A DNA stretch of 64,000 bases from assembly GCF_030372105.1 (NCBI RefSeq), contig NZ_JAUDBQ010000012.1, forward strand, positions 62,001-126,000, written 5' to 3'. Below, one piece after another: positions 50,596 through 56,684 of the stretch. Every line of letters begins with the position of its first letter. The stretch's first letter is position 1. A program made the translations under genes and the position numbers. The notes beneath the pieces are model-generated. The model was not told where the DNA came from, made no database searches, and saw nothing but the letters and a program-made list of their open reading frames with translations. The stretch is from Cellulomonas cellasea. Lineage in GTDB: Bacteria > Actinomycetota > Actinomycetes > Actinomycetales > Cellulomonadaceae.

Positions 50596-52935
50596 TCAGT
50601 CCCGCACCCTCTCCTCGACTCGGGCGGCGCTGGCTATCGGCGCCGGGGCGATCACCCCGGACCCTGCCTCTAACATCCCCTCGCGGTCCACTCGGGCCGC
50701 CCGCAGGCGGGACATGATCACGGCGCCGAACGCGATGGCCGTGGCCGTGGACGCGATGGCGATGCGCGCCGGGTGATTCGCCCCGTCGCCCACGCTGATC
50801 GCGACGATCGCCGGGGCGATGAGCAGCGCCACCAGGTTCATCACCTTGATCAGCGGGTTGATGGCGGGGCCGGCGGTGTCCTTGAACGGGTCGCCCACGG
50901 TGTCCCCGATGACCACTGCGGCGTGCGCGTCGGAGTTCTTGCCGCCGTAGTGGCCGTCCTCGACGATCTTCTTCGCGTTGTCCCACGCGCCGCCCGCGTT
51001 GGCCAGGAACACGGCCATCAGCACACCGGTGGCGATGGCCCCGGCGAGGAACCCGGCGAGCGGCCCCACCCCGAGGCCGAAGCCCACGGCGATCGGGGCG
51101 AACGCGGCGAGCAGCCCGGGCGTCGCGAGCTCCCGCAGCGAGTCGCGCGTGCAGATGTCCACCACGCGCCCGTACTCGGGCCGCACCTCGCCCGTCATGA
51201 TCCCGGGGTTCTCGCGGAACTGGCGGCGCACCTCGAAGACGATGGCGCCCGCGGCACGGGTCACGGCGTCGATCGCCAGGCCAGAGAACAGGAAGACGGT
51301 GGCGCCGCCGAGGATCACCCCGACCAGCGTGATCGGCGAGATGATCGAGTAGCTGAGCATCGACGCCACGACGTCGGAGGTCACGGGCGCCAGGCCCGCG
51401 AGCGACCGGCTCACCGACTCCGCGTAGGCGCCGAACAGCGCGGTGGCGGCGAGCACCGCCGTGGCGATCGCGATCCCCTTGGTCACGGCCTTGGTGGTGT
51501 TCCCGACGGCGTCCAGGTCGGTGAGGATCTTCGCGCCCTCCTCGGTGACGTCGCCCGACATCTCCGCGATGCCCTGCGCGTTGTCGCTCACCGGGCCGAA
51601 CGTGTCCATCGCGACGATCACGCCGACGGTGGTGAGCAGGCCGCAGCCCGCGAGCGCGATGAGGAACAGCGCCAACGGGATGGAGCCCCCGGCCAGCAGG
51701 AACACCCCGCAGATCGCGGCGGCGATGATGCCGGCGGTGTACACGGCCGACTCGAATCCGACGCCGATGCCGGAGAGCACCACCGTCGCGGCGCCGGTGA
51801 GGGAGGTGCGGGCCACATGCAGCGTCGGCTTCGACGTGGTGCCCGTGAAGTACCCGGTGACCCACAGGATGACGCCCGCGAGCAGCACCCCGATGGCCAC
51901 GGCCACCGCCGCGATCAGCCGCGGGTCCCCGGCGTGGCCCTCGAGCCCCGCGGTGCCGCCGACCAGCTCGGTGAAGGTGCTGGGCAAGTAGGCGAACGCG
52001 GCGACGGCAGCGAGCGCCACGCCCGCCAGAGCCGCGGTGTAGAAGCCGCGGTTGATGGCCGCGAGGCCGCCCTCCTCGCCGCGCACCCGGGTGACCAGCA
52101 CGCCCAACACCGCCACGAGGGCGCCGATGGCCGTGACGATCAGCGGGAACACCAGGCCGTGCTCCCCGAAGGCCGCCTTGCCCAGGATGAGCGCCGCGAC
52201 CAGCGTCACGGCGTAGGACTCGAAGAGGTCGGCGGCCATCCCGGCGCAGTCGCCGACGTTGTCGCCCACGTTGTCCGCGATGGTCGCCGCGTTGCGCGCG
52301 TCGTCCTCGGGGATGCCCTGCTCGACCTTGCCGACCAGGTCCGCGCCGACGTCGGCGGCCTTGGTGAAGATGCCGCCGCCCACCCGCATGAACATCGCGA
52401 GCAGGGCCGCCCCGAAGCCGAAGCCCTCCAGCACCGCCGGCGCCTCGCCCCGGTAGATCAGCACCACCGACGCCGCGCCCAGCAGCCCGAGCCCCACCAC
52501 GCACATGCCCACGACGCCGCCGGTGCGGAACGCGATGCGCGCGCCCTCCGCGCGGCCGCCCGGCAGCGACGCCGCCGCGGCGACCCGCACGTTCGCGCGG
52601 GTGGCCAACCACATGCCCAGGAACCCGATGGCCGCCGAGAATCCCGCCCCGAGCAGGAAGAACAGCGACCGGCCGACCTTGACCCCCGCGTCCCCCGGCA
52701 ACAGGAACAGCAGCCCGAACACGACAGCCGCGAACAGCACCAGCGTGCGGAACTGCCGGGACAGGTACGCCGACGCGCCCTCCTGCACGGCCGTCGCGAT
52801 CTGCTGCATCGACGCGGTCCCCTCGTCCGCGGCGAGCACCTGACGGCGCAGCACCACCGCGTAGAGCAACGCGGCGACGGCGACGGCGGCGATGACACTG
52901 ACGATGGTGAGGCTCGTCGGTCCGAGCGTGAGCAT
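50596..52935 (-). CDS. hppA: Membrane proton-pumping pyrophosphatase, K+-independent type
   Basis: A 779-residue protein with about 16 spans. DVGADLVGKVEQGIPEDDARN and DNVGDNVGDCAGMAADL are the pyrophosphate/Mg2+ site; DNAQGIAEMSG and the late DNAKKIVEDG with GDTVGDPFKDTAGPAINPLIK complete it. VGNTTKAVTKG has Lys where K+-dependent enzymes have Ala, which marks the K+-insensitive group. It couples hydrolysis of pyrophosphate to proton export. The ATG at 52933-52935 follows GGGAGGT; an upstream frame is unsupported. Confidence 0.95.
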   Translation of the reverse strand: MLTLGPTSLTIVSVIAAVAVAALLYAVVLRRQVLAADEGTASMQQIATAVQEGASAYLSRQFRTLVLFAAVVFGLLFLLPGDAGVKVGRSLFFLLGAGFSAAIGFLGMWLATRANVRVAAAASLPGGRAEGARIAFRTGGVVGMCVVGLGLLGAASVVLIYRGEAPAVLEGFGFGAALLAMFMRVGGGIFTKAADVGADLVGKVEQGIPEDDARNAATIADNVGDNVGDCAGMAADLFESYAVTLVAALILGKAAFGEHGLVFPLIVTAIGALVAVLGVLVTRVRGEEGGLAAINRGFYTAALAGVALAAVAAFAYLPSTFTELVGGTAGLEGHAGDPRLIAAVAVAIGVLLAGVILWVTGYFTGTTSKPTLHVARTSLTGAATVVLSGIGVGFESAVYTAGIIAAAICGVFLLAGGSIPLALFLIALAGCGLLTTVGVIVAMDTFGPVSDNAQGIAEMSGDVTEEGAKILTDLDAVGNTTKAVTKGIAIATAVLAATALFGAYAESVSRSLAGLAPVTSDVVASMLSYSIISPITLVGVILGGATVFLFSGLAIDAVTRAAGAIVFEVRRQFRENPGIMTGEVRPEYGRVVDICTRDSLRELATPGLLAAFAPIAVGFGLGVGPLAGFLAGAIATGVLMAVFLANAGGAWDNAKKIVEDGHYGGKNSDAHAAVVIGDTVGDPFKDTAGPAINPLIKVMNLVALLIAPAIVAISVGDGANHPARIAIASTATAIAFGAVIMSRLRAARVDREGMLEAGSGVIAPAPIASAARVEERVRD

Positions 52936-53190
52936 GCGACCTCCCCGGGCACAGGCGCAGCCCCCCTGACCACACCCTCGCCGCACGGCCCCGTTGCCGT
53001 GCAGACCCGCGAAGTCTAGTCAGACATATCGGCCGAGGCCGGGCGGACCGGTCGGCTTCCACCGGACGGCCCAGACCGGAAAGATGCGCCAGGCGCCCCA
53101 ACGTTTCCGGCTCGCCGTTCGTGAAAGGGGATGACGGGACAGGTCTAGGCCAGAGTGCGACAGAGCGCGGACAGCGGGGACGGAGGACGG

Positions 53191-53733
53191 ATGGCGGATT
53201 GGGAGCGCATGCTCGACGAGCTCGTGCGCCAGCGCGGCGTCGCCCTGACCCGGTACGCCTATCTGTTGTGCGGCGACGCACGCGAAGCCGAGGACCTGGT
53301 GCAGGACGCGCTGGTGAAGACGTTCAGCCGTCGCCGCGCCCTGCGCGAGTCCGGGTCCATCGAGGCCTACGTCCGCCAAGCCATCCTCACCACCCACGTC
53401 GACGGCGTCCGGCGCCGCCAGCGCTGGGCGGCGATCCGCCATCTCGCAGCGCGCGCCGAGACCCGGCACGGGCCCGAGCAGACGTCGTCCGATCGGATCG
53501 ACATCGAGGCGGCGCTCGACCTCCTGGCCCCGCGTGAGCGCGCCTGCGTGGTGCTCCGCTACTACGAGGACCTCACCGTCCCGGAGATCGCCCGGCAACT
53601 GTCCCTGGCGAACGGGACCGTCAAGCGCTACCTCAGCGACGCCGTCCGCCGCCTCGAGGGGCGCCTGGAACCCCCCGCCGACCCCCACGAGCAGGACGTC
53701 GTGCTCGTCTCCGCCGCAAGGAGCACCAGATGA
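53191..53733 (+). CDS. SigE-family ECF sigma factor, copy 1
   Basis: A 180-residue protein. Region 2 reads RYAYLLCGDAREAEDLVQDALVKTFSR (core-binding helix and -10 recognition), and region 4 ERACVVLRYYEDLTVPEIARQLSLANGTVKRYLSDAVRRLEGRL (HTH for the -35). This is the actinobacterial SigE-like 'SigE family' of about 170 residues. The ATG at 53191 has GGAGG 5 bases upstream. The next gene, overlapping by 4 bases, encodes a single-span membrane protein in the place of an anti-sigma factor. A near copy lies 1.7 kb downstream. Confidence 0.9.
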   Translation: MADWERMLDELVRQRGVALTRYAYLLCGDAREAEDLVQDALVKTFSRRRALRESGSIEAYVRQAILTTHVDGVRRRQRWAAIRHLAARAETRHGPEQTSSDRIDIEAALDLLAPRERACVVLRYYEDLTVPEIARQLSLANGTVKRYLSDAVRRLEGRLEPPADPHEQDVVLVSAARSTR

Positions 53734-54890
53734 CCAGGGACCTCTCACACGAGCTGCGCCTGCTCGCGGAGGCCGCCCCCGTGGACGATCACGCCACGGG
53801 GCTGCTGGGCGCCCGCGCCCACGGCATGGTGGCCCGGATCCGGCGGCGCCGGGCAGCCCGCCGAGGCGCCACCGCCGCCCTGTCCGTGGCCGCTGCCGCC
53901 GCCGTCATCCTGGGCCTCCCGCCCACGCACGGGCATGAGGCGCCGCCCGCGCACGCCCCCCTGGAGACATCCAGCCTGTCCACCTCGCTCGGCTCCGACG
54001 CGTGCGGGCGCACCCTCGAGGAGATCGGGTGGACGAGCGTCGGCCCCGCCCGGCTCGCCGTCCGCGAGATCGGGGCCTACACGTCAGCCCCCACCGGGGT
54101 GGGCCTGCGGTACGCGCTCGCCTCCACCGCGGGCGACACCGCCGACGCCCGCCCAGGGGGCCGCGTCGGTCCCGTCACCCTGACCGCCCTCGACCGCCCC
54201 GAGGCCGTCGTGGTCTCCGACGACGGGCGCGTCGTGGGAGTGCCCGCCGGCGTCGCCGACTACGTGCGGGCGGAGCCCAACACGGTCGGCGGAGCCCTCC
54301 TCGCCACGGGCAAGATCGCCCTCGAGATGCGCTCCTGCGACGGCCCCGACACCCCGATCCCCGCCGGGACGCACTCCGTCCAACTCCGGCAGACCGCCAC
54401 CCTCCACATCGACGGCGAGGGCGTCACCGTGGTGTCCGCCGTCAGCCGGCCGGTCGCTGTCACGTTCCCCGAGGTGGTGGCCACCGCCTTCGCCACCTGC
54501 GGGGACGCGTTCACCCCGGAGCCGGATGACGCCCTCGCGGTCTCCCTCGTCTCGGCGCTGCCGAGCACCGTGGGCGCCGGTGAGATCCTCGACTTCGAGT
54601 TGGCCCTCACCGCCGACTCCGAGCTCGCCTACGTCCAGGTCCGGGGGTTCGCCGCGAGCCTCGTCTTCGTGCAGGACGGCATCGTCGTCGGCGGCGGCGC
54701 CACGCCGATCGTCGCCGACTACTCCGGCGACGGGCCCAGCGGGGCCATCTCCTACGGGCAGGGCGCGGCTGTGGGCTGCGACGACCAACCGCTGCCACCC
54801 GGCGAGTACAGCGCCTATCCGGTGCTCGACGTGGTCGCCGCCCAGACCATCACCCTCGTCGCCGCCCCGCAGGCCCTCAGCGTCCGATGA
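53730..54890 (+). CDS. Single-span membrane protein, probable partner of sigma copy 1
   Basis: A 386-residue protein. Residues 1-45 are cytoplasmic and rich in Arg (RIRRRRAARRG), one span follows (ALSVAAAAAVILGL), and about 320 residues are outside, with four cysteines (DACGR, RSCDG, TCGDA, VGCDD). The outer part has two repeats of a beta-rich pattern. It starts inside the sigma gene (ATGA overlap). This position and topology fit an anti-sigma-type regulator, but the zinc-binding ZAS motif is absent, so the role is inference only. No homologous family is recognised. Confidence 0.75.
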   Translation: MTRDLSHELRLLAEAAPVDDHATGLLGARAHGMVARIRRRRAARRGATAALSVAAAAAVILGLPPTHGHEAPPAHAPLETSSLSTSLGSDACGRTLEEIGWTSVGPARLAVREIGAYTSAPTGVGLRYALASTAGDTADARPGGRVGPVTLTALDRPEAVVVSDDGRVVGVPAGVADYVRAEPNTVGGALLATGKIALEMRSCDGPDTPIPAGTHSVQLRQTATLHIDGEGVTVVSAVSRPVAVTFPEVVATAFATCGDAFTPEPDDALAVSLVSALPSTVGAGEILDFELALTADSELAYVQVRGFAASLVFVQDGIVVGGGATPIVADYSGDGPSGAISYGQGAAVGCDDQPLPPGEYSAYPVLDVVAAQTITLVAAPQALSVR

Positions 54891-54932
54891 CCGCACACGG
54901 CATCAGCGCCACCACTGGCATCAGGGCTGTCG

Positions 54933-55466
54933 ATGGCTGAGTGGGCGGGCGCCCTCGACACCCTCGTCCGCGAGCGGGGGACGGCGTTGACGCGCTACGC
55001 GTACCTGCTGTGCTCCGACGCGCGCGAGGCCGAGGACCTGGTGCAGGACGCCCTGGTCAAGACCTTCAGCAGGAGCCGCTCGCTCCGCGACCCCGGGGCC
55101 ATCGAGGGGTACGTCCGGCAAGCCATCCTCACCACCTACCTCGACGGCTTCCGCCGCCGGCGCCGCTGGGCCGCCATCCGCCACCTCACCGCACGCGACG
55201 AGGCCAGATCCGGGCCAGAGCGCACCACGCCACAGCGCCTCGACATGATGGCCGCGCTCGACGAGCTGCCGCCACGCGAGCGGGCCTGCGTGGTGCTGCG
55301 CTTCTACGAGGACCTCACCGTGCCGGAGATCGCGACCCGGCTCGACCTCGCCGCCGGCACCGTCAAGCGGTACCTGAGCGACGCGATGCGGCGACTCGAG
55401 ACCCACCTGGGGCCGCTCGACGGCGCGTTGGACGGTGACGTGGTGCTGACCGTCACGCGGTCCTGA
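54933..55466 (+). CDS. SigE-family ECF sigma factor, copy 2
   Basis: A 177-residue protein. RYAYLLCSDAREAEDLVQDALVKTFSR in region 2 is nearly identical to copy 1, and region 4 again reads ERACVVLRFYEDLTVPEIATRLDLAAGTVKRYLSDAMRRLE. The loop between the regions keeps RWAAIRHL. It is therefore a tandem paralogue. Unlike copy 1 it is not followed by a membrane partner; a leftward STAS gene comes next. The start codon ATG at 54933 lies 42 bases after the partner gene. The likely -35 recognition helix differs at a few positions, so promoter choice may have diverged. Confidence 0.88.
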   Translation: MAEWAGALDTLVRERGTALTRYAYLLCSDAREAEDLVQDALVKTFSRSRSLRDPGAIEGYVRQAILTTYLDGFRRRRRWAAIRHLTARDEARSGPERTTPQRLDMMAALDELPPRERACVVLRFYEDLTVPEIATRLDLAAGTVKRYLSDAMRRLETHLGPLDGALDGDVVLTVTRS

Positions 55467-55575
55467 CCGCGACAGACCACCGGATGGCCCGGCAGGGGGC
55501 GGGCGCACCCGGTGCTGACGGGCCTCGGGCCGGCCCTGGCGGCCGCCCGGGGCGCCGTCGCGAGCGGCGCGCCGC

Positions 55576-55911
55576 TCACGCGTCGAGCGCGGCCTCGACC
55601 GTCTCGTGGATGGTGAAGACCTGCGTGAGCGCCGTGATGTGGAAGACCTTCAGCAGCCGCTCGGAGTCGATCACCAGCTGCAGCCGTCCGCCCACCCCGC
55701 GCACCTTCTTCAGCACGCCGAGCAGCACGCCCAACCCCGTGGAGTCCATGAAGCGCACCGCCGTGAGGTCCACCACCAGGTCCGCGCGGCCCGCGTCGAC
55801 GAGCGCCGCGAGGCGTTCGCGGAGCACCGACGCGGTGTAGACGTCGATCTCGCCAGTGACCTCGACGACCGTCTGGTCGTCCACGTCCCGGCTGGTCACG
55901 CCCACATCCAT
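55576..55911 (-). CDS. STAS-domain anti-sigma factor antagonist
   Basis: A 111-residue protein made of one STAS domain: VVEVTGEIDVYTASVLRERL, then VVDLTAVRFMDSTGLGVLLG, where Ser57 is the conserved phosphorylation site. In SpoIIAA/RsbV-type systems the unphosphorylated form binds an anti-sigma kinase and frees a sigma factor. No kinase gene is in the window. It is leftward, converging on sigma copy 2, and its start ATG (55909-55911) follows GGGAGCG. A mechanistic link to the neighbouring ECF genes is not established, because ECF factors rarely use this switch. Confidence 0.9.
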   Translation of the reverse strand: MDVGVTSRDVDDQTVVEVTGEIDVYTASVLRERLAALVDAGRADLVVDLTAVRFMDSTGLGVLLGVLKKVRGVGGRLQLVIDSERLLKVFHITALTQVFTIHETVEAALDA

Positions 55912-55988
55912 GCTCGCTCCCGGGTTCGGCCTTGTGCTGGGAGCATTCAAACAGACCGGCGCCCGCGCGCGGCCCGACGGCGCGGCGA

Positions 55989-56684
55989 TCAGCCCTCGGA
56001 GCGCACCGCCGCGAGCGCCGCGCGGTACTCCGGGGTCGTCCCGTCGGGGCGGACCTGCTGCAGCACGTGGTTGCGCACTCCGAGCCGGCGCAGGGTCACC
56101 TGCAGCTCCTCGACGTCGGACGGGCTCAGCACTGTGGGGTCCACAGTGGTGCGGACCTGGACGTCGACACCCGAGTCCAGCACCATCCGCAGCGACGTGA
56201 ACGCCGCGTCGGCTGCGGCGCCCACTCCGGTGATCGCCCGGTAGAGCGCGGCGGGGGCCTTGACGTCGAACCCGATCCAGTCGACCAGCGGGAGCATCTC
56301 CTCGAGTCGGCGCGGGTAGGCGCCCGAGGTGTGCAGGCCGACGCCGTATCCCGCCTCGCGGATCTCCCGCGCGGCCGCCGGCAGGCCCTGCTGGCGGGTG
56401 GGCTCGCCGCCGGAGAGCACCACGCCGTCGAGCAGGCCGTGTCGTCGCCGCAGCAGCCCGCGCACCCGCGACCAGGGGATCTCGCCGGGGGTGCGGGGGT
56501 CGATGAGGCCGGGGTTGTGGCAGTACGTGCACTCCCACGGGCAGCCTTGGAGGAACAGCGTCGCGACGAGCTGGTCCGGCCAGTCGCAGGTGGACAGCGG
56601 GCTCATGCCCGCGATCTGGAGCGCGTCAGCCGAGGCGGGGTCGATGCCCGCCTCAGCCGACGCGCTCCGAGTGGGCTCGCTCAT
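55989..56684 (-). CDS. nrdG: Anaerobic ribonucleotide reductase activating protein
   Basis: A 231-residue radical-SAM enzyme. The CPWECTYC cluster (CxxxCxxC) binds the 4Fe-4S; VVLSGGEPTRQ is the SAM-binding GGE motif. QLVATLFLQG precedes the cluster. It generates the glycyl radical on NrdD. Its ATG at 56682-56684 overlaps the nrdD stop by 4 bases, so the pair is coupled. The sequence matches the class of NrdG annotated as 'anaerobic ribonucleoside-triphosphate reductase activating protein' in actinobacteria. Confidence 0.94.
   Translation of the reverse strand: MSEPTRSASAEAGIDPASADALQIAGMSPLSTCDWPDQLVATLFLQGCPWECTYCHNPGLIDPRTPGEIPWSRVRGLLRRRHGLLDGVVLSGGEPTRQQGLPAAAREIREAGYGVGLHTSGAYPRRLEEMLPLVDWIGFDVKAPAALYRAITGVGAAADAAFTSLRMVLDSGVDVQVRTTVDPTVLSPSDVEELQVTLRRLGVRNHVLQQVRPDGTTPEYRAALAAVRSEG

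Follow-up and report, generated by a model that had tools for sequence, protein, structure and literature searches.

How are two closely similar sigma factors held in check when a single candidate regulator is encoded between their genes? ECF sigma factors are usually insulated by a pairing of one sigma factor with one anti-sigma factor, and the locus considered here, which lies in a 64,000-nucleotide stretch (the window) of the 3.8 Mb genome of Cellulomonas cellasea, departs from that rule. Three genes follow one another on the + strand: s1 (53191–53733; 180 residues), the gene of a membrane protein of 386 residues (the partner, a putative anti-sigma factor; 53730–54890) and s2 (54933–55466; 177 residues). 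The start codon of the partner lies inside the s1 stop codon (an ATGA overlap), and 42 bases separate the partner from s2. The trio occupies a slot, recognizable by synteny, between two genes on the − strand that stand outside the mechanism proposed below: the divergent landmark hppA (50596–52935; membrane pyrophosphatase, Pfam H_PPase, E = 8.1e-234), beside which s1 is the first unit, and a STAS-domain gene (55576–55911; Pfam STAS, E = 5e-21). The initial annotation had described two sigma genes flanking one overlapping, single-span gene, with s2 lacking a partner of its own, and the coordinates and frames bear this out; behind s2 there are 109 bases and then the opposite-strand gene, and inspection by eye of the three forward frames of this gap revealed no remnant of a partner. 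A GC-rich block in the gap (55476–55540) is non-coding yet well conserved in three species, and could be a terminator common to the s2 side and the STAS gene. In folding, the gap has no advantage over shuffled sequences (z = −0.80), and no Rfam family reached its gathering score in 52500–56200.

The products of s1 and s2 share 72% identity over 174 residues; any other sigma factor of the genome matches at 37% or less. Both exceed the curated cut-off of TIGR02937 (sigma70-ECF; 69.4 bits for s1 and 72.3 bits for s2 vs 42.9) and those of PF04542 and PF08281, the Pfam models for regions 2 and 4. “ECF sigma” is consequently a safe label for both, whereas “SigE family”, as they had been called at first, names only the nearest group: TIGR02983 is the best-scoring curated model for each, but their scores (127.7 and 132.2 bits) stay below its cut-off of 141.55. 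We also considered ECF122, a Cellulomonas-typed group with no known anti-sigma factor, and set it aside because its neighbors, in the accessible sections of a review (PMC8999054), are methyltransferases; an existing group number in the 2021 ECF classification may nonetheless apply to these sigma factors.

Is the second sigma gene without a partner peculiar to this genome? A sigma factor matching s2 at E = 1e-30 or better is encoded in 147 of the 200 genomes of the family, own genome included, and we read 136 stretches of such loci (the window, 100 fetched by handle and 35 named, partly overlapping), which yielded 153 distinct sigma genes. At first count 142 of these had a partner with a predicted span directly behind them on the same strand, with a 4-base overlap in 129. 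The 11 flagged genes comprised five in which the span of the partner fell just under the threshold, two at contig ends, one 88-residue fragment, and the s2 genes of the window, of its nearest named relative, Cellulomonas timonensis SN7 (G055, a 91% match), and of one more congener (G038). After this re-check, 147 of the 153 genes conform to the one-to-one rule, and the only complete, contig-internal sigma genes without a partner are the three s2 copies, a small clade that appears to have broken the rule by copying the sigma gene alone. The search for the three-gene order in relatives that had been suggested for this locus therefore found it in two other species, and the two-sigma, one-partner form is present in three of seven genomes of the genus, own genome included. 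(In G038 a simple gene caller replaced s1 by a spurious long frame; that s1 gene is outside the counts of 153 above and 152 below, and was added by its coordinates for the tree, promoter and covariation analyses.)

A partner encoded elsewhere, which the initial annotation had listed (for relatives with one sigma copy) among the findings that would count against its reading, was looked for in the own genome. With a profile of the partner domain, scored on 150 of 437 first-look candidates, the only clear match in the genome was the partner of the window itself (4.6e-16; the next was 0.18). Among the candidates scored, G055 and G038 each gave one further match below 0.01, at 1.6e-5 over part of the profile and at 0.0012, respectively.

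What, then, is the partner? Hydropathy predicts one span, beginning at about residue 46 (residues 46–64; 53865–53921), preceded by a cytoplasmic domain of 45 residues that is the putative sigma-binding part (53730–53864). An alignment of 142 partners reveals that a cytoplasmic domain of about 45 residues is family-wide, with the consensus DL..aL ... RRRRaxR. That the partner has four cysteines beyond its span and no ZAS motif (HxxxCxxC) had been noted from the start and was confirmed: the cysteines are residues 92, 203, 257 and 350. The same holds more widely, as the cytoplasmic part is free of cysteine in 142 of 142 partners and HxxxCxxC occurs in none of them, which sets the family apart from zinc-type (ZAS) class I. 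Outside the membrane, 76 of the 142 partners have four cysteines, 43 have two and nine have six, and only six have an odd number; because these counts are mostly even, they suggest disulfides. In the window's partner there are two cysteines for each of two predicted β-sandwich domains (about residues 96–250 and 260–386; 54015–54887), if Cys92 and Cys257, which lie just before the domains, are counted with them.

The picture of two similar β-sandwich parts outside and two helices inside comes from the alignment and from a weak AlphaFold2 model (mean pLDDT 59.5), in which the inside helices are residues 5–14 and 23–60 and confidence in that part is low. Foldseek and VIA-align gave generic Ig-like matches to the model, with a best Z of 7.4, and the tool warns that values under 8 may reflect mere arrangement. 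No anti-sigma factor was among these matches, which says little as the rows cover residues 96–386 only. A ligand could not be read from such generic matches to a model of this quality, and RsgI-like carbohydrate sensing was dismissed as a candidate, since 33 partners gave one Pfam match, in one member, that looked like chance.

The partner was thought at first to be undescribed, and for its own sequence this stands: it has no match in Pfam or NCBIfam at E up to 1, and a profile of 25 partner domains found one chance-level match among PDB sequences (E = 2; the domain is short and a relative may be missed), with neither CnrY nor RsbN matched. In the wider family, a few relatives weakly match anti-sigma models. 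When 33 of 46 partners were scanned against NCBIfam at E up to 1, three matched the CU044_5270 family (best 0.00024), three the putative anti-sigmaE PRK13920 (best 0.016) and one the NF052375 anti-sigma (0.0098). These scattered matches lean weakly towards an anti-sigma factor; they are too weak to name the partner by, and none is to the window's own.

Could the membrane protein instead be a positive cofactor, or an unrelated sensor that is simply co-expressed? The lack of Pfam, NCBIfam and PDB sequence matches and of a ZAS motif would be in keeping with that, but we regard it as quite improbable. The anatomy of the partner fits a membrane anti-sigma factor because the overlap with the sigma gene is near-universal, there is one span, and a short, basic and conserved part inside is combined with a diverging part outside; the weak anti-sigma matches of a few relatives argue in the same direction.

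When did the second sigma gene arise? In a tree of 153 sigma sequences made by a quick method, the three species contribute six copies that group together in a single clade (SH-aLRT 99). Within it the s1 copies (94) separate from the s2 copies (93), which points to a single duplication, confined to the sigma gene, before the three species split; loss of a former second partner behind s2 is also possible. To call the duplication recent, as had been proposed, is too strong, as the copies parted before the species did and dS between them is 0.65–0.76. Identity to G055 is 91.0% for s2 and 88.3% for s1, and to G038 it is 79.7% for s2 and 82.2% for s1. By a counting method applied to the three species, dN/dS is 0.14–0.24 for s2 and 0.26–0.29 for s1, and in the partner it is 0.05–0.33 inside (0.05 for the cytoplasmic domain vs G055) and 0.56–0.77 outside; the neighboring genes have values of 0.035–0.11 (STAS) and 0.027 (hppA, one pair). 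By these ratios s2 is under purifying selection and the outside part of the partner changes fast. Is s2 nevertheless a decaying leftover? It has neither a partner nor, as described below, a promoter site, but its frame is intact in three species and its dN/dS is low, and we consider this reading barely credible. As a separate observation, dS vs G055 is 0.25–0.37 for s1, the partner and s2 and 0.12 for hppA and the STAS gene, which may hint at recombination or at relaxed codon use in the slot.

Have the copies come to do different things? They agree at 55 of 68 positions in region 2 and 42 of 52 in region 4, and only eight differences between them are fixed across the three species. Because these are so few and are split evenly by nearness to the outgroup, with four nearer to it in each copy, they favor two near-equivalent copies, and as wholes s1 and s2 are about equally near the outgroup sigma factors. 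A new role for s2, such as the initial annotation had entertained, would have it act at other promoters and leave the partner to serve s1 only. Three of the eight fixed differences (positions 97, 101 and 152) are in the linker or region 4, as such a role might require, but the putative recognition part of region 4 is the same at 24 of 29 positions, and together with the small number and even split of the fixed differences this makes a new role unlikely.

The motif CAAC-N17-CGTC occurs within 150 bases upstream of 114 of 152 sigma genes vs 7 of 1372 other genes in these stretches, and three of those seven begin, by eye, like further sigma genes; on the opposite strand the counts are 0 of 152 and 26 of 1372, and genes divergent from a sigma gene, such as hppA, have its leader in common. 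The sequences that bear the motif are related, so that the 114 sites are not independent events. The usual distance from site to gene is about 50–100 bases, and 92 bases 5′ of s1 we find CAACGTTTCCGGCTCGCCGTTCGTG at 53099–53123 (+ strand), a predicted autoregulatory ECF promoter with CAAC at 53099–53102 and CGTG at 53120–53123 as −35 and −10 boxes. It is a variant, CAAC-N17-CGTG, of the usual form ending in CGTC, and its boxes are identical in the three species, in which parts of the leader vary. Before s2 there is no site in any of the three species, even with relaxed boxes. Such a lack is not unique to s2: under these relaxed boxes eight of 153 upstream stretches have no site, and three of them are those of s2 (the others being 5 of the remaining 150). 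From this we infer that s1, the partner and s2 form one operon.

Our best explanation, to which we give somewhat better than even confidence, is a single autoregulated operon in which one anti-sigma factor restrains two near-equivalent sigma factors, much as FpvR does FpvI and PvdS. The promoter at 53099–53123 would be read by the very sigma factors encoded downstream, and s1, the membrane protein and s2 would be made from a single transcript. As long as no signal arrives, the 45 cytoplasmic residues of the partner would tether both s1 and s2 to the membrane; an extracellular signal, felt by the two predicted, disulfide-stabilized β-sandwich domains, would free both, and their release would result in positive feedback. 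Having arisen by a sigma-only duplication in the ancestor of three Cellulomonas-group species, s2 would give two sigma genes per anti-sigma gene and hence a lower threshold or a stronger response, rather than a new pathway. Co-transcription, binding of each sigma factor and signal-driven release are the inferred steps of this scheme. The two-sigma, one-sensor unit that had been suggested for this locus is accordingly still the best reading of it, and its gene order recurs in two other species, with the binding itself a prediction from sequence.

Would the partner truly hold both? Two points suggest that it does: among the candidates scored, the genome revealed no further protein of this kind, and a free autoregulating sigma factor in that operon would, logically, be difficult to silence. 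Alternatively, s2 may have escaped the anti-sigma factor at the duplication, so that transcription from the s1 promoter is the only limit on it and it amplifies the response once s1 is free. That s2 is without a partner of its own in three species, with no second one detected in the genome (150 of 437 candidates scored), can be taken to favor such an escape, and of the six best covariation couples between sigma factor and partner, three (sigma positions 91, 106 and 152) involve residues at which s2 differs from s1. However, an unrestrained s2 would, we reason, hold the operon's promoter on, it is as near the outgroup sigma factors as s1 with only the eight fixed differences, and the covariation signal barely exceeds its control. 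In that analysis (mutual information over 143 sigma-partner pairs, effectively 93) the top score was 0.178 and the maxima of ten permutations, which keep relatedness, were 0.106–0.174, and an attempt to locate specificity residues or an interface was abandoned for this reason. We therefore view an unrestrained s2 as a possible but doubtful alternative.

Some observations count against a partner that restrains both sigma factors. The covariation just described is one; the partner domain resembles no anti-sigma factor of known structure in sequence; other arrays keep one partner per sigma factor, as if each sigma factor needed its own; the s1 promoter has the CGTG end; five sigma genes other than s2 also lack a promoter site; and towards G038 the identity of s2 is below that of s1. 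The search for a second partner, moreover, covered 150 of 437 candidates.

How does this compare with known systems? In Pseudomonas aeruginosa FpvR binds and inhibits both FpvI and PvdS (as given in the available parts of PMC4256889), and this is a two-sigma, one-anti-sigma case (PMC4598750, likewise in part). The likeness is that of one membrane-spanning anti-sigma factor for two ECF sigma factors, proven there and proposed here; FpvI and PvdS, however, have low identity and different targets and receive their signal via the outer-membrane receptor FpvA, whereas here the copies are 72% identical and the host is an actinobacterium. Of the anti-sigma classes I to III, as set out in the accessible portions of PMC8103513 and PMC7406223, class I has a four-helix domain, and the 2020 survey (PMC7406223) kept domains of 50 residues or more, a floor that is a curation limit and above the 45 residues that precede the span in our partner. 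Class II, in the same accessible portions, is of the CnrY type, whose two helices wrap around sigma 2 and sigma 4, and the short two-helix anti-sigma part of CnrY, which pairs with CnrH of Cupriavidus, may resemble that of our weak model; its signal comes from the separate sensor CnrX, whereas the presumed sensor part here is in the same protein. RsbN of Streptomyces (class III, with BldN) is likewise an actinobacterial membrane-anchored anti-sigma factor of an ECF sigma factor (PMC8103513, in the part available), but showed no sequence match to the present domain in the PDB search. Finally, Clostridium thermocellum has several parallel membrane anti-sigma factors of the Sigma-I/RsgI kind with differing inputs (from the accessible text of PMC12203970); Sigma-I is, however, another sigma type, and no substrate-binding domain was found in 33 partners here.

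The two-sigma form is real and well conserved, and it is an unusual variation on a widespread series of sigma/sensor gene pairs. A divergent sigma gene of this kind accompanies hppA in 66 of 101 stretches (the window and those fetched by handle). In 62 stretches the arrays, defined by a first sigma gene within three genes of hppA and at most four genes between neighboring sigma genes, contain one sigma gene in 29, two in 24, three in five, four in two and five in two; three of the single-sigma arrays reach the end of a contig, G038 has two sigma genes and is counted with one, and as the stretches were picked for holding the sigma gene the numbers describe arrays and not frequency. The longest arrays next to hppA, with four or five sigma/partner units, are seen at L047 (G099), L056 (G153), L179 (G196) and L192 (G183), and many of their sigma genes have a CAAC-N17-CGTC site of their own. 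Nor is the arrangement confined to the family. At order level a match at 1e-30 occurs in 45 of 248 genomes, of which 35 belong to other families, and 18 loci from 18 of these 35 establish that it is wider: hppA is within the short stretch in 13, CAAC-N17-CGTC precedes the sigma gene in 18, and the partner has a span near its start in 15 (two with a second predicted span), with three that looked miscalled. As an aside, nrdD- and nrdG-like genes lie just past the slot in the window, and in another family of the order (L265 and L267) related sigma/partner units adjoin a gene that resembles, by eye, the nrdD-like gene of the window.

These arrays, more than the two-sigma form, are in our opinion the more interesting part. 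Tentatively, we speculate that the hppA slot is an expandable array of extracellular sensors, with fast-diverging outside parts and one promoter type, CAAC-N17-CGTC, in which one triggered sensor could switch on others (an OR gate); the anti-sigma factors would constitute a new class, marked by a cytoplasmic stretch of some 45 residues, and the extra sigma gene of the window's group a built-in amplifier. We recognized no papers describing the slot, the partner domain or the promoter, nor a function for this widespread actinobacterial system, in the literature searched, which was mostly without subscription journals. For the field, the family offers a clear promoter type and what is probably an anti-sigma domain on which little has been written, and the clade that doubled its sigma gene is a natural setting in which to ask how a response depends on the dose of sigma factor relative to anti-sigma factor.

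Which other genes might such sigma factors read? The pattern CAACGNTY-N13-CGTB matches 11 times each in the window's genome and in G055 and five times in G038, where the reversed controls give 6, 2 and 1 matches, respectively. The s1 site is among the matches in all three genomes; there is some excess over the controls, and it is insufficient to name a regulon. Two sites are leads only, as candidates for one. At L280:1590 (G000:C1:36089) a promoter-like CAACGTTC-N13-CGTC precedes an operon for two large permease-like proteins, the first of which has an FtsX domain, and two ATPase-like proteins. G055 has this site as well, in a leader that is largely conserved; the G038 orthologue has no site at the same place and a looser CAAC-N17-CGTT elsewhere, 102 bases before the start, there is none in G069, G081 or G016, and shuffled leaders yield a site of this type in 2–4%. 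The other lead, at L252:1501 and L249:1501 (G000 and G055), is a promoter-like CAACGATC-N13-CGTT 147 bases before an RDD-family gene. A similar promoter-like stretch occurs near lipoprotein-like genes (G000:C18:5922, G055:C9:300777 and 313762, and G038:C1:2815588), where it points away from them and is perhaps another regulatory element.
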